Source: Cloacibacillus porcorum (GTDB taxonomy: Bacteria; Synergistota; Synergistia; Synergistales; Synergistaceae). Taken from it: a stretch of 64,000 bases of DNA. Positions within the stretch are counted from its first letter, which is position 1, and every line of letters begins with the position of its first letter. Shown here one piece after another: positions 4,322 through 44,583 of this stretch. Under the pieces are notes generated by a model that saw only the letters and a program-made list of their open reading frames with translations, was not told the DNA's origin and searched no databases. A program made the position numbers and the translations under genes. The stretch is from NCBI RefSeq assembly GCF_001701045.1, contig NZ_CP016757.1, positions 2,382,219-2,446,218 on the forward strand. The letters are read 5' to 3'.

Positions 4322-4385
4322 TGCTGTTTCCTCCAGAGGTCATTATTACACCGGAGATGAAAGAAAAGTTATATGATCTCTCCAT

Positions 4386-4468
4386 CTTCCCTACGACGGC
4401 GTTATCCGTATCAGGTTCAAAGGGTCATGACATGCGTCAATTTCTCAGCCTCGCGACTCCCCCGATGT
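4386..4468 (-). promoter_or_regulatory. TPP riboswitch controlling thiT-thiN
   Basis: Minus strand. The conserved TPP-aptamer blocks are present in order: ATCGGGGGAGTC, GGCTGAGA, ACCCTTTGAACCTGAT and ACGCCGTCGTAGGGAA. The aptamer ends about 65 bases before the thiT start. No strong terminator hairpin was seen between aptamer and start, so translational control by occlusion of the ribosome-binding site is the likelier mode (inference). Confidence 0.95.
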
Positions 4469-4480
4469 TAAGAATGTTTT

Positions 4481-4534: not shown

Positions 4535-4540
4535 AGCGAC

Positions 4541-4622
4541 GACTCCGGGGGAGCTTAAGAAGCTGAGAGGAAGTTTTTGACTTCGACCCCAGACCTGATC
4601 CGGTTAATGCCGGCGTAGGGAG
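4541..4622 (+). promoter_or_regulatory. TPP riboswitch controlling thiD-thiM-thiE-thiW
   Basis: Plus strand. The aptamer blocks are ACTCCGGGGGAGC, AGCTGAGAGG, ACCCCAGACCTGATC and ATGCCGGCGTAGGGA. A strong terminator follows at 4644-4677, so this copy probably works by transcription attenuation. Confidence 0.96.
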
Positions 4623-4643
4623 CGAGGCCGAGAAAAGAAAAGA

Positions 4644-34889: not shown

Positions 34890-35174
34890 TTATATCTTCC
34901 TCCCAGAAAATTTTACCTTGGCTGCCCCCGATTCAGGCCTGAGGCCGCCGCCCTGTTATTCGCTGGACATATAATAACAAGAGGCTATGAAGATTTTATG
35001 ACCGAAATGTGGGAGTTTTGTGAGGATGAAAACAGCGGCCGTATCAACAACAAATACCGCAAGCCAGCAGTCTGGGGCGGACCGGCGGTAAGATTCACTC
35101 CGCGTAAAGCATTTCGCAATATTGCCAAAAATGACGAATCCAAGAAATCAGTACAAATTTACCCATGGTTTCCT

Positions 35175-35203: not shown

Positions 35204-35215
35204 TCTCTCGTTACG

Positions 35216-35289
35216 GCGGCATAGCCAAGTGGTAAGGCAGAGGACTGCAAATCCTTTATCCCCAGTTCGAGTCTGGGTGCCGCCTCCAT
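35216..35289 (+). tRNA. tRNA-Cys (anticodon GCA)
   Basis: Acceptor stem GGCGGCA pairs with TGCCGCC; D arm AGCCAAGTGGTAAGGC; anticodon loop CTGCAAA; T arm CCCAGTTCGAGTCTGGG; CCA encoded at 35287-35289. It borders the accessory region: an integrase start lies 110 bases downstream, as expected if this tRNA served as an attachment site. Confidence 0.97.
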
Positions 35290-35301: not shown

Positions 35302-35335
35302 CCCTTGCTATTGCAAGGGATTTTTTATTTTAGCC
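35302..35335 (+). terminator. terminator after tRNA-Cys
   Basis: TCCCTTGC and GCAAGGGA stem, followed by TTTTTTATTTTA. Confidence 0.9.
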
Positions 35336-35399
35336 TCCTCTAAAATTCCCCTATTTGACCAATGTACAAGTTATACGGACAAAAGGAGAAGTTGCAAAA

Positions 35400-35528
35400 A
35401 TGTCGCTTTTCAAGATACGCAAACACCCTGTATGCCTGGTAAGAAAATACACGACGTTATATTTTAGGCAGATAATCCCTAGCGACTTACGTACATATTT
35501 CGGCAGGGCTTCTATAAAAATATCGTAA
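35400..35528 (+). pseudogene. tyrosine-recombinase (phage integrase) N-terminal remnant
   Basis: An AAAGGAGAAG site precedes an ATG that gives 42 residues beginning MSLFKIRKHPV. The stretch YFRQIIPSDLRTYFGR fits the integrase N-terminal (R/Y)FRRxIPxDLRxxFG motif. The frame then hits an IS66-type end at 35525 (stop TAA 35526-35528), so catalytic domains are gone. A 5' end next to tRNA-Cys suggests a former integrative element using the tRNA as its site. Confidence is limited by length. Confidence 0.72.
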
Positions 35529-35618
35529 GCGTCAAAACAACGTAAGCGTCAAATATACCGTACCTACGCCAATAATCAGATCTATTGTATTATCAGTCTG
35601 CAGAGTCGTTGAGTCCGG
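35525..35618. repeat. IS66-type left-end copy, partly duplicated
   Basis: GTAAGCGTCAAA occurs twice (35525 and 35542). The second copy continues through CCGTACCTACGCCAATAA and on to GAGTCCGGCA, matching the 36178-36257 element end with a few changes. It interrupts the integrase remnant and borders the CRISPR relic on the left. Confidence 0.8.
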
Positions 35619-35642
35619 CACCGGAGACAGAGATGTCATCCG

Positions 35643-35876
35643 TGCTTAGCCCGCTGTCACACTCTGAAATGCTATAATCAGGAGGCAATATATTCTGCCG
35701 CCTCCTGTGTTATAGCCCTCTGTTACACTCCGAAATGCTATAATGTTCATAAAAGTATCTCCACCGTCAGGGTTGTTATAGCCCTCTGTCACACTCCGAA
35801 ATGCTATAATGGCGCCAAGGAAGATAATCGACAGTTTTACGTTATAGCCCTCTGTCACACTCCGAAATGCTATAAT
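35643..35876 (+). CRISPR. four-repeat CRISPR array, type II-C-like, relic
   Basis: 36-base repeats at 35643 (degenerate), 35709, 35775 and 35841, each separated by exactly 30 bases. The repeat starts GTTATAGCCC and ends GAAATGCTATAAT; like Neisseria type II-C repeats, it ends in an extended -10-like TGCTATAAT, so each repeat may carry its own promoter reading rightward. The first copy differs at its 5' half, typical of the old, distal end. A truncated cas2 and a strong terminator adjoin; no cas9, cas1 or tracrRNA is present. Type call rests on repeat similarity and on cas2. Confidence 0.93.
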
Positions 35877-35885
35877 ACGCAGCGC

Positions 35886-35938
35886 CCGGATCCTTGCCAG
35901 TACTTGTTTGGTAAGGATCCGGACGTTTATTTTTTTTG
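35886..35938 (+). terminator. terminator after the CRISPR array
   Basis: CCGGATCCTTGCC and GGTAAGGATCCGG form a 13-bp stem (one G-T pair), followed by ACGTTTATTTTTTTT. It ends just before the convergent cas2 stop and shows that the array is read left to right. Confidence 0.88.
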
Positions 35939-36177
35939 TTAAAAGAGTAATGTTTGGCGGGAATCTACGAATTTTTCTTTTTTCGTTTTTACTCCGAGCA
36001 GCGGTTTCATCGCGGCATATTGCCTGTCTGTTATCTGCAAAAATCTCACGGAGTCCTTTTCGGGCAATTCTTTTTTCAGTCGTTCTAAATGTTTGTCCGC
36101 AGAGTCTTGCCCGTTTACGATCCTGCAATAGACGGAAAGCTGAAGCATGTCATAACCGTCGGAGATGAGGAACTTTC
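35939..36177 (-). pseudogene. cas2: cas2, C-terminal part; N-terminus lost at an IS66-type end
   Basis: Reading starts inside the gene at 36177 with KFLISDGYD and continues MLQLSVYCRIVNG, DSADKHLERLKKELPEK, DSVRFLQITDRQY and a TLLF end. This is the second half of a type II Cas2 (about 78 residues of some 100-110 remain), including the YCR and ITDxQ segments. The missing start carried the metal-binding Asp. The gene faces the array, as in many II-C loci. It cannot make a functional Cas2, so no new spacers can be acquired. Confidence 0.88.
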
Positions 36178-36673
36178 GTAAGCGTCAAAACAACCGTACC
36201 TACGCCAATAAGCAGATCCATTGTATTATTAGTCTGCAGAGTCGTTGAGTCCAGCATAGGAAGCAAGGTCACAGGATTCGTCGTTGTCACCAGCCATTGC
36301 TCTTCAGGCATCAGTTTTGCATAGTCACGTTCAAGAGCGAAGAGTCTCTGTCGCAGTATTCAAATCCTTTCTGTGAGGCGCAGCTCTTCCTATACAGCCA
36401 GAAACAGTCGCCGTCCCACTCGATGATCTTCACCCTGTTACGGCTCTTATTACAGAAGATAAACATAGACTCTCCACTGAAATCACAGGCAAGGCTGAGA
36501 TTTACGATGGCGGCCAGACCATCGACACTCTTACGCATATCCGCAGCTCCGCAGACAATATATATCTTTGTTATTGCTCTTTGTCATAAAACTGCTCCCT
36601 TCTGTGATGCTTGATGAGGGAAGTTAACGTGCTTTTTGACTTAATTTATAGGTACGGCTGTTTTGATGCTTAC
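36178..36673. mobile_element. IS66-family remnant with both terminal inverted repeats
   Basis: Left end GTAAGCGTCAAAACAACCGT (36178 on) and right end at 36650-36673 are inverted copies with two mismatches in 24. The GTAA start is the IS66 hallmark. About 496 bases, against 2.5 kb for a full element, so tnpA and tnpC are missing. Flanks GAACTTTC and GATAGAGT do not match, so no target duplication survives and the element is not a simple insertion. It cuts into cas2 on its left. Confidence 0.82.
36311..36583 (-). pseudogene. IS66 TnpB (Orf2) fragment
   Basis: A minus-strand frame reads ITKIYIVCGAADMRKSVDGL, then SMFIFCNKSRNRVKIIEWDG and DCFWLYRKS, the accessory IS66 Orf2/TnpB protein. There is no proper start: the in-frame codon before it is a stop at 36586-36584, and the nearby ATG is out of frame. 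The C-terminus diverges and ends early. An inert relic. Confidence 0.8.
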
Positions 36674-36708
36674 GATAGAGTTTGTGTGTGATGATAGTTG
36701 AATAATGA

Positions 36709-36749
36709 TGTAAAACTAGCCAGCGCATATAATGGCGGCTAGTTTTACA
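36709..36749. repeat. perfect 13-bp inverted repeat with TATAAT in its loop
   Basis: TGTAAAACTAGCC (36709-36721) and GGCTAGTTTTACA (36737-36749) flank a 15-base loop containing ATATAAT. It sits between the IS66 remnant and the dehydrogenase operon. It could be a terminator lacking a full T-tract, or a binding site over a promoter. 36750-36920 shows nothing else recognisable. Confidence 0.7.
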
Positions 36750-36921
36750 TTTATATCTATTGCAGAGCGTAGCCAGTTGTCGCTCCTTTAAAAGCTGTCG
36801 TGCAAACAGGCGCGGCAGACTGACTTCTCACTCACAGAAAGCAGCCGGGAATAGACCTGTATATGAGTCGGATATACCGTCTGCTGCGCCGGCGGTCCTG
36901 ATTCCGCAACCCTTTTATCTC

Positions 36922-38070
36922 CTATGCAAGCGGGTCTTTGAACAGTTCTCCCGTCTCAAAGCGGTGATAGCTGAATTTTGACGGATCCATGAAGGGTGTT
37001 TCTCCGTTAATGAGCGACGTCATAATCTGTCCGGCTACGGGTGAAAGCATGAAGCCGCGCCCCGAGAATCCGGTCAAGTGGAAGAAACCCTTTACTTCGT
37101 CTGTCTCTCCGATAATCGGAGCACAGTCCGGAGTCATGTCATAATATCCGGACCACAGACGTACCACACGGATGTCTTTGGTTCTTGGAAGAAGCTTCAG
37201 GACCATTTGAGCTGTATCCGCGATAACATTGACGTTTAGCTCATATCCTAGCTTTTTCTCTTTTGAAGAGTCTCTTCCGGCGATAATGGAGCCGTTCGGC
37301 CGCTGCTGCACATAGTAGTTTCCGCTCATGCTCATGAGCATTGTGGGACAGACTCCCGGCTCAACAGGCTCGGTTACAAGGACCTGATGCCGCTCGGCCC
37401 AATTCGGAATTTTGATTCCGGCCATTGCTGATATCTCCTGTGCCCATGAACCGGCGCAGTTGATAACCGTACGGGTATTTATAGTTCCGCGGTTCGTCAC
37501 AACTCCATTGACCCGGCCGCCATCGACATTGATGCCCGTCACTTCTGTGTGTTTGAAAAATCTCGCGCCGTTGCGCCTTGCGGCCTCTTGAAATGCGTTA
37601 GTCGTCAGGAAGGGATCGGCATGTCCGTCCCTGGCATGGAAAGTAAATCCTATCGCATCGTCTACCGCGGCGCCGGGACATATTTCCTGTAATCTTTTTT
37701 TATCAGAGAAGAGCTCCGTCATTACACCAGCTTTGTGCTGAAGCTCGACATTTTTGTGGAACTGTTCCCATTCTTTTTCATTATATGCGACAAACACGTA
37801 GCCTGACTGGTTGAGTCCGGTAGGGAGGCCTAGTTCATCATCAAGATGCTCGAAGATTTCAATCGCGCTAAGCGCCATACGGCAGTTAAGCTCGTTGCCC
37901 CACTGGGCGCGCATTCCAGCTCCACAGCGCCCGGTAGAACCTGATCCGACTGTATTCTTTTCAAGAACGACGACATCTTTTACACCGGATTTAGAAAGAT
38001 AGTAGGCCGTCGAGGCCCCTACCGCGCCTCCTCCTATAATGACTACCTCAGCTGTTTTTGGAAAATCCAT
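36922..38070 (-). CDS. FAD-dependent amino acid / amine dehydrogenase, DAO family (HcnC/sarcosine oxidase beta-like)
   Basis: 382 residues. The Rossmann motif VVIIGGGAVGASTAYYLS (8-25) and the second FAD loop VLEKNTVGSGSTGRCGAG are clear; the C-terminus has GYYDMTPDCAPIIGE and FSGRGFMLSPVAGQ, typical of the D-amino acid oxidase superfamily. It removes electrons from an amino or imino acid and needs the neighbouring Fe-S subunits for transfer. ATG 38070 gives best spacing from GAGGTAA; a longer frame to 38238 overlaps the upstream gene. Last gene of the five-gene operon. Substrate not readable: proline, hydroxyproline, glycine or sarcosine are options. Confidence 0.88.
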   Translation of the reverse strand: MDFPKTAEVVIIGGGAVGASTAYYLSKSGVKDVVVLEKNTVGSGSTGRCGAGMRAQWGNELNCRMALSAIEIFEHLDDELGLPTGLNQSGYVFVAYNEKEWEQFHKNVELQHKAGVMTELFSDKKRLQEICPGAAVDDAIGFTFHARDGHADPFLTTNAFQEAARRNGARFFKHTEVTGINVDGGRVNGVVTNRGTINTRTVINCAGSWAQEISAMAGIKIPNWAERHQVLVTEPVEPGVCPTMLMSMSGNYYVQQRPNGSIIAGRDSSKEKKLGYELNVNVIADTAQMVLKLLPRTKDIRVVRLWSGYYDMTPDCAPIIGETDEVKGFFHLTGFSGRGFMLSPVAGQIMTSLINGETPFMDPSKFSYHRFETGELFKDPLA

Positions 38071-38075
38071 CGTCA

Positions 38076-38366
38076 TTACCTCTTTTCGCCTTCTTCCACA
38101 TAGTCCTTCGCCAGAAGCCCTATCTTTATCGGCTTCACAGGCGGCCGGATCGTCCCCGGATCGACCTCGGCCACGGATTTGCCTGTAGCCCGGGCTATCT
38201 CGCGCATGATAATGTCGCGGCATCCGCGTCCCTGACACGGCCCCATTCCGACACGAAGCTCTCTCTTGAGCTCATCAAAGGTGTCATAACCTCTGGCTAT
38301 CCATTCCCTGATTTCTTCTATTTCTACCTCTTCGCAGCGGCAGACTACGTTAACTTTATTTACCAT
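38076..38366 (-). CDS. BFD-like [2Fe-2S] subunit
   Basis: 96 residues. VVCRCEEVEIEEI with GMGPCQGRGC (Cys pattern C-x-C ... C-x4-C) is the BFD-like [2Fe-2S] domain, found as the insert or partner of HcnB/OoxA-type dehydrogenase subunits. Start ATG 38366 directly follows the stop of the 4Fe-4S gene. In most relatives the domain is fused to the FAD subunit; here it is separate. Confidence 0.87.
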   Translation of the reverse strand: MVNKVNVVCRCEEVEIEEIREWIARGYDTFDELKRELRVGMGPCQGRGCRDIIMREIARATGKSVAEVDPGTIRPPVKPIKIGLLAKDYVEEGEKR

Positions 38367-38367
38367 A

Positions 38368-38889
38368 TCACCGCACCACCTTAATCGATCTGATGTCATC
38401 AACAAGATTCTTCGGTATCACGATGCTTACGACATGCGTGCAGTCCTTTAGAGGCTCTGATACTGAAATAACCTCTCCGTCAGCGACAACATCTCCAGTC
38501 CGGCTGAGACATTTTACAACTTCTCCTTTGCCGGGAAGAGGAAGCAGCTCATATGGCAGTTTGAGAACGGCGCTCTCATCAGAATATGTAAGGTCGGCGA
38601 CAAAGCAGGCCAGCCCGGGACAGCGCGCCACGCAGATGCCGCACCCGGTGCACTTTGCGTAATCAATCTCAGGAGTATCGTTAATGTCTGCGTGTGGAAC
38701 TATTGCTCCGGAAGGACAGACCGTAGCGCATGGGTTACACGGAATTCTCTGCGGACATTCAACAATGACATAGCCGCCCCGTTTTTTCTTCCACTCCTCC
38801 GCAGGAGGTAATACAGCACCTTCACAGTGTTCCACCAACACACCGCTGTTATAAAGCTTTTCCTTGTCGTCTATGCAACCGCAAGCCAT
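38368..38889 (-). CDS. 4Fe-4S ferredoxin-type subunit
   Basis: 173 residues. N-terminal MACGCIDDKEK carries two extra Cys; the central part holds two cluster motifs: CPQRIPCNPCATVCPSGAIV (irregular first) and CTGCGICVARCPGLAC (canonical). The C-terminal third is a beta domain without known motif. GGAGG sits seven bases before ATG 38889; the longer frame to 38904 would include it. Electron-transfer subunit of the complex, overlapping tightly with its neighbours. This subunit is extra compared with HcnABC and resembles the proline dehydrogenase-like sets of anaerobes. Confidence 0.86.
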   Translation of the reverse strand: MACGCIDDKEKLYNSGVLVEHCEGAVLPPAEEWKKKRGGYVIVECPQRIPCNPCATVCPSGAIVPHADINDTPEIDYAKCTGCGICVARCPGLACFVADLTYSDESAVLKLPYELLPLPGKGEVVKCLSRTGDVVADGEVISVSEPLKDCTHVVSIVIPKNLVDDIRSIKVVR

Positions 38890-38891
38890 CG

Positions 38892-39992
38892 TTATGCCTC
38901 CCATCCGTCTACCATGACCTGGCTGATCCCGCTGAGGATCTTTGTCCCTACTTCGCCGGCACGGAGATGCTCAAGCCTCGCCCAGAATTCATGAAATTTA
39001 CGGTCATCGACAGGATATCCCAGCGCCTTTGCCGCGCTTAGGCCGGCTATCCTTCCTTCAACCATCGCCGCCGAGGCCTCCTCGATTCCGGCGGCGTCTC
39101 CAGCCACCCACAAATCTGGGTTGCTTGTACGCATCGTCTTGTCCCTAAAAGGAACGTAGCCGCAGAGCTGAGGGACATAACGCATATCGGCGCCGGCCAT
39201 CCAAAACATTTCTGTCGTAGGGGTAAGCCCTACGGCCATGCAGATAACGTCACAGTCGATTTTTACAGGCTCGTTTATCGGATGGAACTTATCGTCGATC
39301 TCCGATATTACGACCCCCGTTACCGTAGTGTCGCCAAGCGCTTCAATAATTGTATGCCTGAGAAGAATCGGGATTCCCAAACGGCGGATCTTTGCCGCGT
39401 GGACCCAATAGCCTCCGACTTTCGGCATTGCTTCGATGACAGCCGCAATTTCAACTCCGGCCTGCATAAGCTGATAGCTTACAATAAGCCCTATGTTCCC
39501 GGCTCCGACCATGACGACCTTCTTGCCCGGCACGACTCCGTATAAATTCATAAGTGTCTGGACTGCGCCGGCTCCGTAGACTCCTGGCAGGTCGTTGTTC
39601 GGGAAGAGGATCATCCTCTCCTGCGCTCCAGTAGCCATTATAGTTTTCTTCGCCTTTACCCTGTAATACGACTCCTCTCCCTCCATCGCGGTGTAAACCC
39701 CGTCCTCATGAAAGAAGCCCGTTACTGTTGTATTCGTACGAATTTCGACCTTATCTCCAAGACTCTTTATTTCGTCCATAAGTATATCGGCAATCTTAAA
39801 GCCTCTGGTTCCGGCATATTCATCTTTGCTTCCAAAGAATTTATGTGTCTGTTTGACAAGCTGCCCACCAGCATGAAGGTCACTTTCCATTACCAGAACC
39901 TTTGCGCCGGCTCCGGCCGCCTCTGCCGCGGCGCAGAGGCCAGCCGCTCCCCCGCCTATTACAAGCAAATCTGTCTCAACTAAGTTATTCAT
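38892..39992 (-). CDS. FAD/NAD(P)-dependent oxidoreductase subunit (HcnB-like)
   Basis: 366 residues. The dinucleotide motif DLLVIGGGAAGLCAAAEAAG (9-28) binds FAD, and VVMVGAGNIGLIVSYQLMQAG near 160 is the second site for NAD. CMAVGLTPTTEMFWMAGADM and WVAGDAAGIEEA follow. HcnB-like subunits pass electrons between the DAO-type subunit and an acceptor. ATG 39992, with AAGGCGGG upstream. Second gene of the operon. Confidence 0.9.
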   Translation of the reverse strand: MNNLVETDLLVIGGGAAGLCAAAEAAGAGAKVLVMESDLHAGGQLVKQTHKFFGSKDEYAGTRGFKIADILMDEIKSLGDKVEIRTNTTVTGFFHEDGVYTAMEGEESYYRVKAKKTIMATGAQERMILFPNNDLPGVYGAGAVQTLMNLYGVVPGKKVVMVGAGNIGLIVSYQLMQAGVEIAAVIEAMPKVGGYWVHAAKIRRLGIPILLRHTIIEALGDTTVTGVVISEIDDKFHPINEPVKIDCDVICMAVGLTPTTEMFWMAGADMRYVPQLCGYVPFRDKTMRTSNPDLWVAGDAAGIEEASAAMVEGRIAGLSAAKALGYPVDDRKFHEFWARLEHLRAGEVGTKILSGISQVMVDGWEA

Positions 39993-40006
39993 CACGTCTG
40001 CCCGCC

Positions 40007-40327
40007 TTACTGTACTTCAAGAGGCACAAAACCTCTGCCGTGCTGCGTCTCAATGTTCATTCCCTCTTTAAGAGGGGTCACGCAGGTTCTCACATTCGGG
40101 ACTCCGTCCACAACCATAAAACAGGAGCTGCATTTACCAATTGCGCAGAAAAAACCGCGGGGGCGTTTCATCTCAGGCGTAATCCTGTAAACGTGCACCC
40201 CATTTGCGTGAAGTGCCATCGCAATGGGCTCACCCTCGTGTCCTTTGAGCTTTTTCCCATCAAAAGTGAATACTACTTCCCTGCCATGCCGGAACTCCAA
40301 TATTGGATGTTTCTGAATAAGTTCCAT
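40007..40327 (-). CDS. (2Fe-2S)-binding subunit (HcnA-like)
   Basis: 106 residues. GFFCAIGKCSSCFMVVDGV supplies three Cys and RTCVTPL the fourth, as in sarcosine oxidase alpha/HcnA N-terminal domains; FDGKKLKGHEGEPIAMALHA is the conserved start. First gene of the dehydrogenase operon, with TAAGGAGGGG before ATG 40327. Promoter and an inverted repeat lie in the AT-rich region upstream. Confidence 0.9.
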   Translation of the reverse strand: MELIQKHPILEFRHGREVVFTFDGKKLKGHEGEPIAMALHANGVHVYRITPEMKRPRGFFCAIGKCSSCFMVVDGVPNVRTCVTPLKEGMNIETQHGRGFVPLEVQ

Positions 40328-40407
40328 GCGTTTTCCCCTCCTTAAAGCTTTTCTGAGTTATTGTTCATAACAAAAAATACACAAAAGCACAGCTAAAACC
40401 TACACAT

Positions 40408-40452
40408 TGTATTCCAATAAAATTAAGGAGTGGTTATGTTCGTTGGAATACA
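40408..40452. promoter_or_regulatory. inverted repeat, possible operator of the dehydrogenase operon
   Basis: TGTATTCCAA (40408-40417) and TTGGAATACA (40443-40452), perfect 10-base arms 25 bases apart, 81 bases before the first dehydrogenase gene. Spacing suits a looping dimeric regulator or an RNA hairpin. Confidence 0.55.
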
Positions 40453-41397
40453 CAGTATACGATGTATATTAGTGGTAATTGAGACTTTTTGTCAAGCTGT
40501 CTTGATTTAATATATCTAAGATGATTTTCCGTTTACCATACATAAGTTACTGCATCTGAAAATTTCAGGTATGCAAGATGGCGCAGAGAGATGTTTATCT
40601 AATGCATGGAGGCGCAAATAGTGATTTTCAAGGCCGATTCGCAATACGCACCCTGCAAAAATCTTCCGGTTGTTCGTAAGTTTCCCCAGCGACATGTTTA
40701 ACGATCCTATTGGTGTTGGCAGTGTAGATGGCGCCGCGGGCTTCTCGCCTTATAGGGATTCTCATTGCCGTCAAGATGATAATCCCTCTTGTGGTTCATA
40801 ATACGCTCAATAGCCTTTTTGACCGGCTGCTTGACGGTACCTTCCAAACTGAGCAGGCCGGCTGACCCATGATGATTCTTACAGAAACTGACCTGGCAGC
40901 TATTCGTCAACTTCACCTCCCTGACTTATCTGTATTTATTTTTTCATCTTTCTTAATATCTAAAATATCCATGCCCGCTGGCACTATAATGTAAGCTGGC
41001 TGCTATTCCTTATTCGGTGTTTTCTATATAGGCCTTACACACTTTATTTATTCTCTCGAATATTATTTTTTCTCCATACTAGCCTGGGCTTGACTCTGTA
41101 GAACATTTCTTGCTTGCGTCCACTGAAGAAAACCGTTACATGCAGAAAGTGACGCACTATACGCTTCTTTAGCTCTGTTCTGCATTTTTATCTAAAAATA
41201 TTATGAATAAAACAGTAATATATGGACTTATAAGTATTATATCCGCATATTTATATTTATCCTTCAATATTTATTAATTCAGTGTAATACATTCTATTTT
41301 TTACACACTATTGTAAAAACAATCTAAGATATAGTAATTTACTTTAATATCTTAATTATTTTATCTATCTAATAACATATTATGAACAACACAAGGA

Positions 41398-41426
41398 TTG
41401 ACAAAAACCGCATCTGATTATATATA
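41398..41426 (+). promoter_or_regulatory. probable promoter of the AGCS symporter gene
   Basis: TTGACA (41398-41403), 17 bases, TATATA (41421-41426). It leaves a leader of roughly 220 bases before the start codon. Confidence 0.55.
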
Positions 41427-41596
41427 TATATTCAGATTTTAAATGAATAGTTAGTTTATCTAAATCATATGTATACAGAGTATGCATTGAGTGCGTTGTC
41501 AGCTAAATTTAAAAATAGCTACTATCTCATTGCATATTAAGTATATTGTTGCACATTATTATCTCTAGTTTTACGAAAAATTAAGAAGTATTTTTA

Positions 41597-41622
41597 TATA
41601 GCACAGTTTTGATCGTGCTATA
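41597..41622 (+). promoter_or_regulatory. leader hairpin before the symporter gene
   Basis: TATAGCAC and GTGCTATA flank a ten-base loop about 25 bases before the ribosome-binding site. It may control translation or message stability. Confidence 0.5.
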
Positions 41623-41657
41623 TGGGGATATATGCGTCAAAAAAAACGGGAGGCGAT

Positions 41658-43145
41658 ATGCTAATGGAAACATCGATAGGGCATCAGGTGGAAGCATTGT
41701 TGGAGTATGTGGCATGGACAATACTATGGAATAAGTATTTTGCTATAATGTTCCTAGTGTTGGGGCTTTATCTAACTATAGGCCTTCGTTTCTTTCAGTT
41801 CCGCCGTTTTGGGGATATCATGCGCAACACGATCTGTACTCTATTCAGTAAGAAGAATAAATCAAACAAAGAGGGTGACGGTAAGGTTTCGTCCTTTGGC
41901 GCTTTTGCTACAGCTGTCGGAAGTTCAGTAGGCAACGGCAACATCGCCGGAGTTGCCAGCGCAATCGCAATAGGCGGCCCAGGCGCCATATTCTGGATGT
42001 GGATGTGCGCACTTGTCGGCATGGCGACAAAGATGAGTGAAATTGTCCTTACTCAAACCTATAGACAGAAAGATAACACAGGGGTTCCACGCGGAAGCGC
42101 AGCATACTACATCCAGAAGGGCCTTGTTGAAGAGAGAGGCTGGAAATGGTGCAAGGGCCTTTCTGTAATTTTTACGATAGCGATGCTGTGCGCTTTCTAC
42201 TTCACCCCCGGACCTTATGTCGTCGCCGAATCTGTTCAGGCCGGATTCAACCTTTCCGCTACAGGGTCAATTATCTTCTCCGTCGTATATGTAATACTCC
42301 AGTTCATCATCATTCTTGGCGGTATAAAGCGTATCGTCAAGTTTGCCGAGCGTATAGTGCCATTTATGGTTGTCGCATATTTCGGCTTGGCGTTTTTCCT
42401 TTTCTTAAGTGATATCTCAGCTACCATTGAGGCATTTAAGTCCATATTTTACTGCGCATTCAATCCAACAGCGGCGGTCGGCGGTTTTGCCGGCGTCAGC
42501 GTCATTATGACGCTTCAGGTAGGTGTCGCAAGGAGCGTTTACAGTAACGAAGCCGGCTGGGGAAGTTCCCCCATTATTCACGCTGCCGCTGAGGTTGACC
42601 ATCCCGCGCGTCAGGGGCTTTGGGGCGCCTTCGAGGTGTTTGTCGATACGATAATTGTCTGCACAATCAGCGGTCTAATAGTTGTCATCACCGGCGTGTG
42701 GCAGACTGGCGAAGGCGGAGCCGGTTCCGTTGGAAAGGCGCTCACCCAGGTGTTCGGCCCCGTAGGTGGAATTGCTTTGGCCATCTTTATATTCATTTTC
42801 TCGCTCACAACGTCAACAGGCTGGTATGCCTATCTTGAAGGCCTCGTAGGTTTCCTGGTTCGAAACAAGCCCGCTGAAACGCGCACGAAGATCGTTAAAT
42901 TCATTACATGTACCGGGCCGCTCTTTGGGCTCTGCGCCACAATGTTCTTCTTTGCGCACGGCACGGTCCCTGCAGTTGCCTGGATGGTTCTTGATATTCA
43001 GTCCGCTATACCGGTCTATGTCAATGTCGTAGCTTTGACGCTGTTATCACCGGTAATCTTTAAAAAGGTCAAAGAGTTTGAAACAGATTTCCTTGATCCC
43101 GAAAAAGCGGCCCGCAAAGCTGTAGCTCTTAACGCAGAGGACTAA
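41658..43145 (+). CDS. alanine/glycine:cation symporter (AGCS family)
   Basis: 495 residues, about eleven transmembrane segments. Family features: FGAFATAVGSSVGNGNIAGV, ATKMSEIVLTQTYR, RGSAAYYIQKGL, and SVYSNEAGWGSSPIIHAAAE, the last two being AGCS hallmarks. Imports alanine, glycine or a related amino acid with Na+ or H+. ATG 41658 follows GGGAGG by five bases; the frame extends to 41622 but without a site. It stands opposite the dehydrogenase operon and probably feeds it substrate (inference). Confidence 0.93.
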   Translation: MLMETSIGHQVEALLEYVAWTILWNKYFAIMFLVLGLYLTIGLRFFQFRRFGDIMRNTICTLFSKKNKSNKEGDGKVSSFGAFATAVGSSVGNGNIAGVASAIAIGGPGAIFWMWMCALVGMATKMSEIVLTQTYRQKDNTGVPRGSAAYYIQKGLVEERGWKWCKGLSVIFTIAMLCAFYFTPGPYVVAESVQAGFNLSATGSIIFSVVYVILQFIIILGGIKRIVKFAERIVPFMVVAYFGLAFFLFLSDISATIEAFKSIFYCAFNPTAAVGGFAGVSVIMTLQVGVARSVYSNEAGWGSSPIIHAAAEVDHPARQGLWGAFEVFVDTIIVCTISGLIVVITGVWQTGEGGAGSVGKALTQVFGPVGGIALAIFIFIFSLTTSTGWYAYLEGLVGFLVRNKPAETRTKIVKFITCTGPLFGLCATMFFFAHGTVPAVAWMVLDIQSAIPVYVNVVALTLLSPVIFKKVKEFETDFLDPEKAARKAVALNAED

Positions 43146-43156
43146 AATACAACAAC

Positions 43157-43182
43157 ACGGCGTTGGTATAAATATCAACGCC
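43157..43182 (+). terminator. hairpin after the symporter gene
   Basis: CGGCGTTG and CAACGCCG with a ten-base AT loop, 12 bases after the stop; no T-tract follows. Confidence 0.55.
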
Positions 43183-43335
43183 GTAATGACTTCGATATCA
43201 TAGGGGTAGTTTAACGCAAACCTATGGCAATATCAGAAAGCGCTGCGAGTCATTGCTGAATAATTGGAGTTCGTGTATCTCCCCGCTCTTGGTGCCGTAT
43301 GCAGCCAACATTAATGATTATGTTGTACTTAATAT

Positions 43336-43367
43336 AAAAAAGCCTGTCTTAGACGGGCTTTTTTGTT
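43336..43367. terminator. bidirectional terminator
   Basis: AAAAAAGCCTGTCT and AGACGGGCTTTTTT, between the symporter gene and the convergent cation exchanger. It is a natural right border for the low-GC region. Confidence 0.9.
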
Positions 43368-43404
43368 ATATTACGGCAGGCCGCCATGATATTATTATCT
43401 TTTT

Positions 43405-44355
43405 CTATATCAGAAGGAATGCGAGATAGCAGGCAATTATCAGTATGGGGCACAGCCAGCGCAGGCGCACCTTTCTGTTCCAGATCAGGCGCAGAAAAAT
43501 CAGGTTCGCCAGCGCGCCGAAGATGAGCAGGTTGAGCGTTTTGGGGTCGGAGTAATCGTATACGCCCTTGCCGATGTATGTGATGTCGGCGAAGGCCAGG
43601 ATGACAAAGTTGAACAGGTTGCTGCCGATGATGTTGCCAACCGCGATATTATAGCTCCCGAGGCGGAAGAGCATCATCGTCGAGGCGGCCTCCGGCAGGG
43701 AGGTGGCGACTCCGAGGAAGAGAGCGCCGGCAAGCCCCTCGCCAAGATGGTGGCGTGTCGCGATGCCGTCCGTGAGGTAGGTCAGTATTATACTTAGCAG
43801 GACAAGTCCCACCGCCGCGAGAGCAAAACGCCGCTTCACCTCTTTCAGGGATAGTTTCCCCAACGAGGCGGAGGGCTCGGGCTCCGCTCCGTTTTCTCCC
43901 GACATGTGGAATACGCCATAGATATAGTGGGCAACGATGACGACCGAGGCGATATTGATACTGAAGTATTCAATGTTCAAAATGCCGGCCATATTCAGGA
44001 AGAGGACCGCATATACGGCGGCAACGGTTATCGTCACCGTTATATGGCTCTTAGATATTTTAAATGAACTGAAACTACGGTAATAGATAATTATGAATAC
44101 CGCGAGCATCGCACAGTTGAAGATATTGCTGCCCAGGATGTTGCCGATCGCCAACCCCGGTTTGTCGAGAAGCATTGTAGAGGTAAGGCTTGTAAAGAGC
44201 TCCGGCAGCGAGGTGACGGCGGAGAGCACGACGCCTCCGATAAAGGCTCCGGAAAGAGTCGTATGCTTTTCCATTATATCGACATACTCCGAGGCCCTGA
44301 TCGAGCACCAGACCACGGATGCCGCTATTATCAAATATACCGCATAGATCATCAT
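43405..44355 (-). CDS. CaCA-family sodium/calcium exchanger (YrbG-like)
   Basis: 316 residues with the two inverted alpha repeats: SAVTSLPELFTSLTSTML plus GNILGSNIFNC, and GVATSLPEAASTMMLF plus GNIIGSNLFN, whose Glu residues bind cations. About ten transmembrane helices. ATG 44355 is chosen from the MM pair because GGCGGG lies six bases upstream; the longer frame to 44388 has none. Exports Ca2+ or takes up Na+ in exchange. Monocistronic. Confidence 0.93.
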   Translation of the reverse strand: MMIYAVYLIIAASVVWCSIRASEYVDIMEKHTTLSGAFIGGVVLSAVTSLPELFTSLTSTMLLDKPGLAIGNILGSNIFNCAMLAVFIIIYYRSFSSFKISKSHITVTITVAAVYAVLFLNMAGILNIEYFSINIASVVIVAHYIYGVFHMSGENGAEPEPSASLGKLSLKEVKRRFALAAVGLVLLSIILTYLTDGIATRHHLGEGLAGALFLGVATSLPEAASTMMLFRLGSYNIAVGNIIGSNLFNFVILAFADITYIGKGVYDYSDPKTLNLLIFGALANLIFLRLIWNRKVRLRWLCPILIIACYLAFLLI

Positions 44356-44583
44356 TATATCCCGCCTTTTCCCAATAACAGTTGACAATTATACTTTATT
44401 GTTTCGTAATATGCCATATCTCCCGGCGGTATGCGGCAATAATCGAAAATCATCACAATTGACATGGATAAAATAGACTATGAGGCTCTTGAACTGCTCG
44501 CAGCTCTACAATTATAATTTTACAGTACAGTCTTACATTTCCTTCTCCAGAGATTAATTCTGCCATGAAAAGGAGGGACGGAT

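Follow-up and report, generated by a model that had tools for sequence, protein, structure and literature searches.

The cas2-proximal end of a probable decayed type II-C CRISPR-Cas locus in Cloacibacillus porcorum

The sections of Chylinski 2013 cited here (PMC3936727) give cas9, cas1 and cas2 alone as the gene set of type II-C CRISPR-Cas systems. For Campylobacter jejuni, the cited part of Dugar 2013 (PMC3656092) places an extended -10 element in each repeat and the start of the crRNAs inside the spacers, and excerpts of two further papers (PMC12638026, PMC12814883) describe both repeat promoters and growth of the array at its 3' end in II-C systems. According to passages of Feussner 2025 (PMC12080349), extra first repeats gather mutations that could block useless crRNA, and terminators and hairpins are described upstream of II-C arrays.

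Here we describe a short remnant in the genome of Cloacibacillus porcorum (one contig of 3,585,187 bases) that is, with a probability of about 0.93, what decay has left of a type II-C CRISPR-Cas locus at its cas2-proximal end. It lies in the 64-kb stretch of DNA that was analysed as a whole and that we call the window. The relic adds one more case to a known kind and is mostly ordinary for this system type, since the published II-C traits already include repeat promoters, mutation of the 5'-most repeat and growth of the array at its 3' end. Among the matches listed, a literature search for Cloacibacillus with CRISPR gave nothing on this relic by title or start of abstract, and neither relic terms nor Synergistetes combined with Cas9 and II-C led to anything on this locus.

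Four repeats, a terminator and part of cas2

The initial annotation had described four 36-base repeats with 30-base spacers, and this is what we found: the array spans window positions 35643-35876 and consists of four 36-nt repeats and three 30-nt spacers, with a start-to-start spacing of 66. The repeats, all on the + strand, match the consensus GTTATAGCCCTCTGTCACACTCCGAAATGCTATAAT at 30/36 positions (repeat 1, 35643-35678), 35/36 (repeat 2, 35709-35744), 36/36 (repeat 3, 35775-35810) and 36/36 (repeat 4, 35841-35876, the array end proximal to cas2). Promoter-like ends had been noted for the intact repeats; TGCTATAAT in fact forms the 3' end of all four, including the degenerate repeat 1, whose mismatches by thirds are 5, 1 and 0. 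The proposed resemblance to II-C repeats agrees with the II-C design in the cited part of Dugar 2013 (PMC3656092). The motif TGNTATAAT has seven copies on the + strand of the window, four of them in the array, where base composition would predict about 0.5 per strand. No Rfam CRISPR family reached its gathering score within the window.

Neither spacer 1 (35679-35708, +) nor spacer 2 (35745-35774, +) has a convincing protospacer, and spacer 3 (35811-35840, +) has none. Viral_contigs contained no exact copy of the last 18-19 nt of any spacer, and none of the repeat's 21-nt 3' module. By blastn against phages, full-length spacer 3 found nothing, spacer 2 a single match of 18 nt (E 0.6) and spacer 1 a set of 16 records, 15 of them Salmonella phages (92% over 25 nt, E 0.6, among the matches listed); the matches of both spacers were taken as chance. 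In the relic's own genome, the array used as query at E <= 1 returned itself and one 17-nt match, and as the latter spans the junction of repeat 1 and spacer 1, there is no self-target. Spacer 1 also contains 8-nt inverted arms (CAGGAGGC/GCCTCCTG) that could fold into a hairpin.

Behind the array follows the strong terminator that had been proposed, a terminator-like hairpin of 15 pairs and then a T tract (35886-35922, +); for the stretch 35877-35942 the folding energy is -30.8 kcal/mol, with a z of -7.0 relative to shuffles. Convergent with the array lies the C-terminal part of a type II cas2 gene (35939-36177, -), with about 79 readable codons and a stop, the N-terminal third being missing. 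The fragment matches the Cas2 models of Pfam (2.7e-11) and NCBIfam (1.1e-16) and a solved Cas2 structure (nearest, 8.8e-08), and when it was compared with type II families, its best PADLOC model was Cas2_II (3.8e-26).

The cas2 fragment had been described as cut by an IS66-type end, and the boundary is sharp: homology to the cas2 of a same-genus genome stops exactly at 36177, and an IS66 terminal repeat begins at 36178. The element that starts there (36178-36673, +) is a deletion derivative of 496 bp with both terminal repeats and a remnant of tnpB (IS66 Orf2; 36311-36538, -; PF05717, 8.8e-17), internally deleted relative to copies of about 2.2 kb elsewhere in the genome. A fragment of an IS66-type left end also precedes the array (35542-35629, +), itself preceded by another 17 nt of IS66 end sequence (about 35525-35541). 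The annotated interval 35643-36177 therefore stands as the core of the locus, which extends over about 35542-36673 if the flanking IS66 pieces are included. The 8-bp flanks of the derivative, GAACTTTC and GATAGAGT, are unlike each other, so that it lacks a target duplication (read by eye, the flanks of one full IS66 copy in the genome are alike at 7/8); for this reason insertion, deletion or recombination may each have done the damage.

The intact locus of a relative, and what has been lost

An intact counterpart is found in a genome of the same genus, G013, where the order is tracrRNA anti-repeat, cas9 (1060 aa), cas1 (292 aa), cas2 (111 aa) and a convergent array of 13 repeats. Its Cas9 scores 776 bits against TIGR01865 and has Cas9s of about 1080-1095 residues as its best solved relatives, its Cas1 scores 274 bits against the type II model, and its Cas2 matches the Cas2_II model of PADLOC; cas9, cas1 and cas2 are the only cas genes at the locus, with neither csn2 nor cas4. 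The G013 repeat differs from that of the window at 2/36 positions, and this identity of 34/36 with the repeat of an intact cas9/cas1/cas2 locus, together with the Cas2_II match of the fragment, bears out the proposed type II-C origin. No similarity to another CRISPR type emerged, the nearest array being one that adjoins cas9, cas1 and cas2 only.

The likeness reaches into details. The cas2-distal repeat of G013 is degenerate in its 5' half and intact at its 3' end (mismatches by thirds 9, 5 and 0), and a hairpin occupies the position equivalent to the relic's terminator, although it is weaker (-16.4 versus -30.8 kcal/mol) and its stem has changed. Modelled pairing with the G013 tracrRNA gives -46.4 kcal/mol for the window's consensus repeat and -39.6 for repeat 1. 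The G013 array (L010:13431-15512) is itself split by a transposase-like ORF of 619 codons, and its two cas2-proximal spacers are identical.

The claim that cas9, cas1 and tracrRNA are gone holds for the whole genome. TIGR01865 had no match in the single contig, while the same search found matches in 5 of 52 family genomes. The 4,891 bases from tracrRNA to cas2 in G013 gave one match in the relic's genome, 288 bp at 90% identity (window 35890-36177), which covers the cas2 end and the terminator. No tracrRNA anti-repeat was found at E <= 1 with the array as query, which did recover the anti-repeats of G013 and of a further genome (G007), nor did the G013 tracrRNA region have a match at E <= 0.01; a 12-nt complement of the repeat at 35105-35116, left of the neighbouring tRNA and in a stretch shared with G013, was rejected as a tracrRNA remnant and put down to chance. 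Two cas1 genes are present, both inside loci whose gene order, as read from the ORFs, is that of type I-C; a type II cas1 was not found in the genome, and of the type II genes the relic retains the cas2 fragment only. Those two loci, at about 1.33 Mb (L017) and 0.46 Mb (L018), look complete.

The relic and the G013 locus do not share a genomic site. On the left, the relic's neighbour is a tRNA-Cys (gca) gene (35215-35288, +; ARAGORN, Rfam), and synteny with G013 ends at 35306; in G013 the same tRNA is joined directly to sequence matching the window from 44431 onward, so that 35307-44430, 9.1 kb beside the tRNA, is absent from the matching site. Conversely, the genes that flank the G013 CRISPR locus map near 434-445 kb in the relic's genome, with no CRISPR there and, between them, a group of genes that looks like a branched-chain amino-acid transporter set. 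As the sites differ, the locus has either moved or been gained separately, which counts against decay in place from an ancestral locus common to both genomes. At the start of the 9.1-kb segment stands the N-terminal stub of an integrase-like ORF (35400-35525, +; 42 codons; PF20172, 6e-07, 29.5 bits with a cut-off of 27), which carries DUF6538, presumably an integrase N-terminal domain, and breaks off where the IS66 end sequence begins. The segment also holds oxidoreductase-like and symporter-like genes, some of them about 70% identical to relatives that G013 carries elsewhere. The 3' end of the tRNA (20 nt, at most 3 mismatches), taken as the possible attachment site, occurs once in the window, and hence no far end of an integrated element was found. 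Elsewhere in the window, two TPP riboswitches face away from each other (4370-4473, -; 4537-4639, +).

Repeat ends as putative promoters, in arrays and on their own

We surveyed the arrays of 80 Cas9 loci kept from a genome-contig search and of three family loci (L010, L046 and L049), in which a simple finder recovered 57 array pieces. Five of these were dropped, three because they had under three units, one as a second piece of an array already included and one because its repeat was a different one; 52 remained. Near the 3' end, with both strands considered and no shuffle control, TGNTATAAT was matched at best at 9/9 positions in 19 arrays, 8 in 20, 7 in 5, 6 in 5 and 5 in 3. Units were then walked in 36 arrays, that is the 52 minus 17 with other or short repeats, plus the window. 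The 32 first units away from contig ends carry on average 3.06, 0.97 and 0.22 mismatches by thirds, with the last third intact in 26 of them, against 0.03, 0.01 and 0.02 for 484 interior units; the corresponding counts for last units seem to include false units (L064, L080, L088, L109). This pattern of first units agrees with the published one, and the relic fits it too, its mutated repeat being the cas2-distal one. It is no proof of promoter constraint, however, since erosion of the array from its outer edge would look the same; we thus rejected such constraint as a proven cause of the intact 3' end of repeat 1. In a strict sigma-70 scan of the + strand, none of the repeats coincided with a promoter that has a -35 box; this is expected of extended -10 promoters but is no positive proof of them.

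The 3' module of the repeat (21 nt, at most 2 mismatches) was searched for in 185 genomes of the phylum and is present in five: G013 and G076, which have arrays, the window's genome, G143 with one match and G046 with two. The backwards control pattern had no match among the matches listed. G046 has no TIGR01865 (Cas9) match, and both of its elements are solo and resemble II-C repeats, at L048:4603-4638 (+, 32/36) and L051:5220-5255 (-, 26/36), with the 3' module nearly intact. Each points at a gene start, 32 nt on (L048:4671) and 38 nt on (L051:5181), and the two proteins encoded there, small, acidic and colicin-immunity-like, are related to each other (26%, E 9e-11); of the two, one has a Pfam match, to Colicin_immun (28.7 bits, cut-off 22), and the other has none. 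The immunity-like family has three members in 2 of the 185 genomes, two in G046 and one in G032, the latter directly behind another reading frame and with no repeat nearby; viral_contigs held no related genes. The surroundings in G046 are prophage-like, with a phage minor head gene on L048 and a phage-type repressor on L051.

These two elements raise the possibility, which we hold tentatively and think rather less probable than its opposite, that II-C repeat ends are real portable promoters able to outlive the immune system, the 3' module having been captured on its own ahead of protein-coding genes. Against it counts that the cases number only two, both from a single genome; if they are promoters, CRISPR repeats would have been re-used as promoters of genes. 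A second reading takes the solo modules for RNA anti-CRISPRs with a linked protein, solitary repeat units with such a function being known from the cited part of PMC10651486. The captured promoter seems the simpler of the two, as the promoter motif sits at the end of the repeat.

Origin of the relic and its place among known systems

In the reading we prefer, an ancestor would have carried a whole II-C locus, and IS66-mediated deletion or recombination would have taken away all of it that lay past the last two thirds of cas2. Repeat 1 had probably acquired its 5' mutations already while the system still worked. By analogy with published II-C systems, the 3' end of each repeat would act as an extended -10 promoter from which a short RNA starts in the following spacer, and the terminator would stop these RNAs. 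Transcription of the array from its repeat ends is plausible, and crRNA-like RNA may still be made, as the initial annotation had suggested. In the absence of Cas9 and tracrRNA such RNA would be expected to stay unprocessed, to be unstable and to serve no immune function, and no immunity is expected.

Whether such RNAs might have taken on a new role, for example antisense or regulatory, with the spacer 1 hairpin and the terminator as structural parts, is a question raised by the conservation of all four extended -10 ends, the degenerate repeat included, and by a terminator hairpin stronger than that of G013. We consider it improbable: no spacer has a target in the genome itself, in phages or in viral_contigs, such motifs stay intact in young relics without selection, and CRISPR expression is only weak in a C. 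jejuni strain whose cas9 is broken (cited part of PMC3656092).

Still less likely, indeed very unlikely, is an incomplete but usable array whose spacers serve the two type I-C systems or some Cas9 acquired at a later time. The two loci with type I-C gene order are there to be served, and the repeats keep their full modelled pairing with the G013 tracrRNA, but no tracrRNA was found in the genome, and the repeat that type I-C reads, by means of Cas5, is a different one. That the locus is not CRISPR at all, being a 66-bp tandem structure that resembles one and counts only four units and three spacers, is refuted by the G013 locus, the adjacent cas2, the difference of 2/36 to the repeat of an intact Cas9 locus and the unrelated spacers.

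As a decayed II-C locus, the relic is of minor importance: it documents that one lineage, which still has two type I-C loci, has lost a Cas9 system. With Cas9 and tracrRNA gone, any RNA from the relic would reflect promoter and terminator alone, which makes it a natural setting for testing promoters borne on repeats.

Compared with the systems closest to it, the relic shows both similarities and divergences: (i) With the II-C-like locus of G013 it has in common the repeat (34/36), the 30-nt spacers, the convergent cas2, the position of the terminator and the degenerate cas2-distal repeat, whereas G013 has kept tracrRNA, cas9, cas1 and cas2, has 13 repeats and differs in genomic site and spacers. 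(ii) As in the II-C systems of Neisseria meningitidis and C. jejuni, the 36-nt repeats have an extended -10 end, an extra 5' repeat is mutated and, as in many members, the array is convergent with the cas genes; unlike them, the relic lacks cas9, cas1 and tracrRNA, and its promoters are predicted from sequence. (iii) Relative to the II-C arrays in the cited passages of Feussner 2025 (PMC12080349), its terminator lies at the opposite, downstream end. (iv) Like other orphan or decayed arrays without cas genes, it is an array left behind once the interference genes were lost; in contrast to them it still carries two thirds of cas2, and it is this that keeps its subtype readable.
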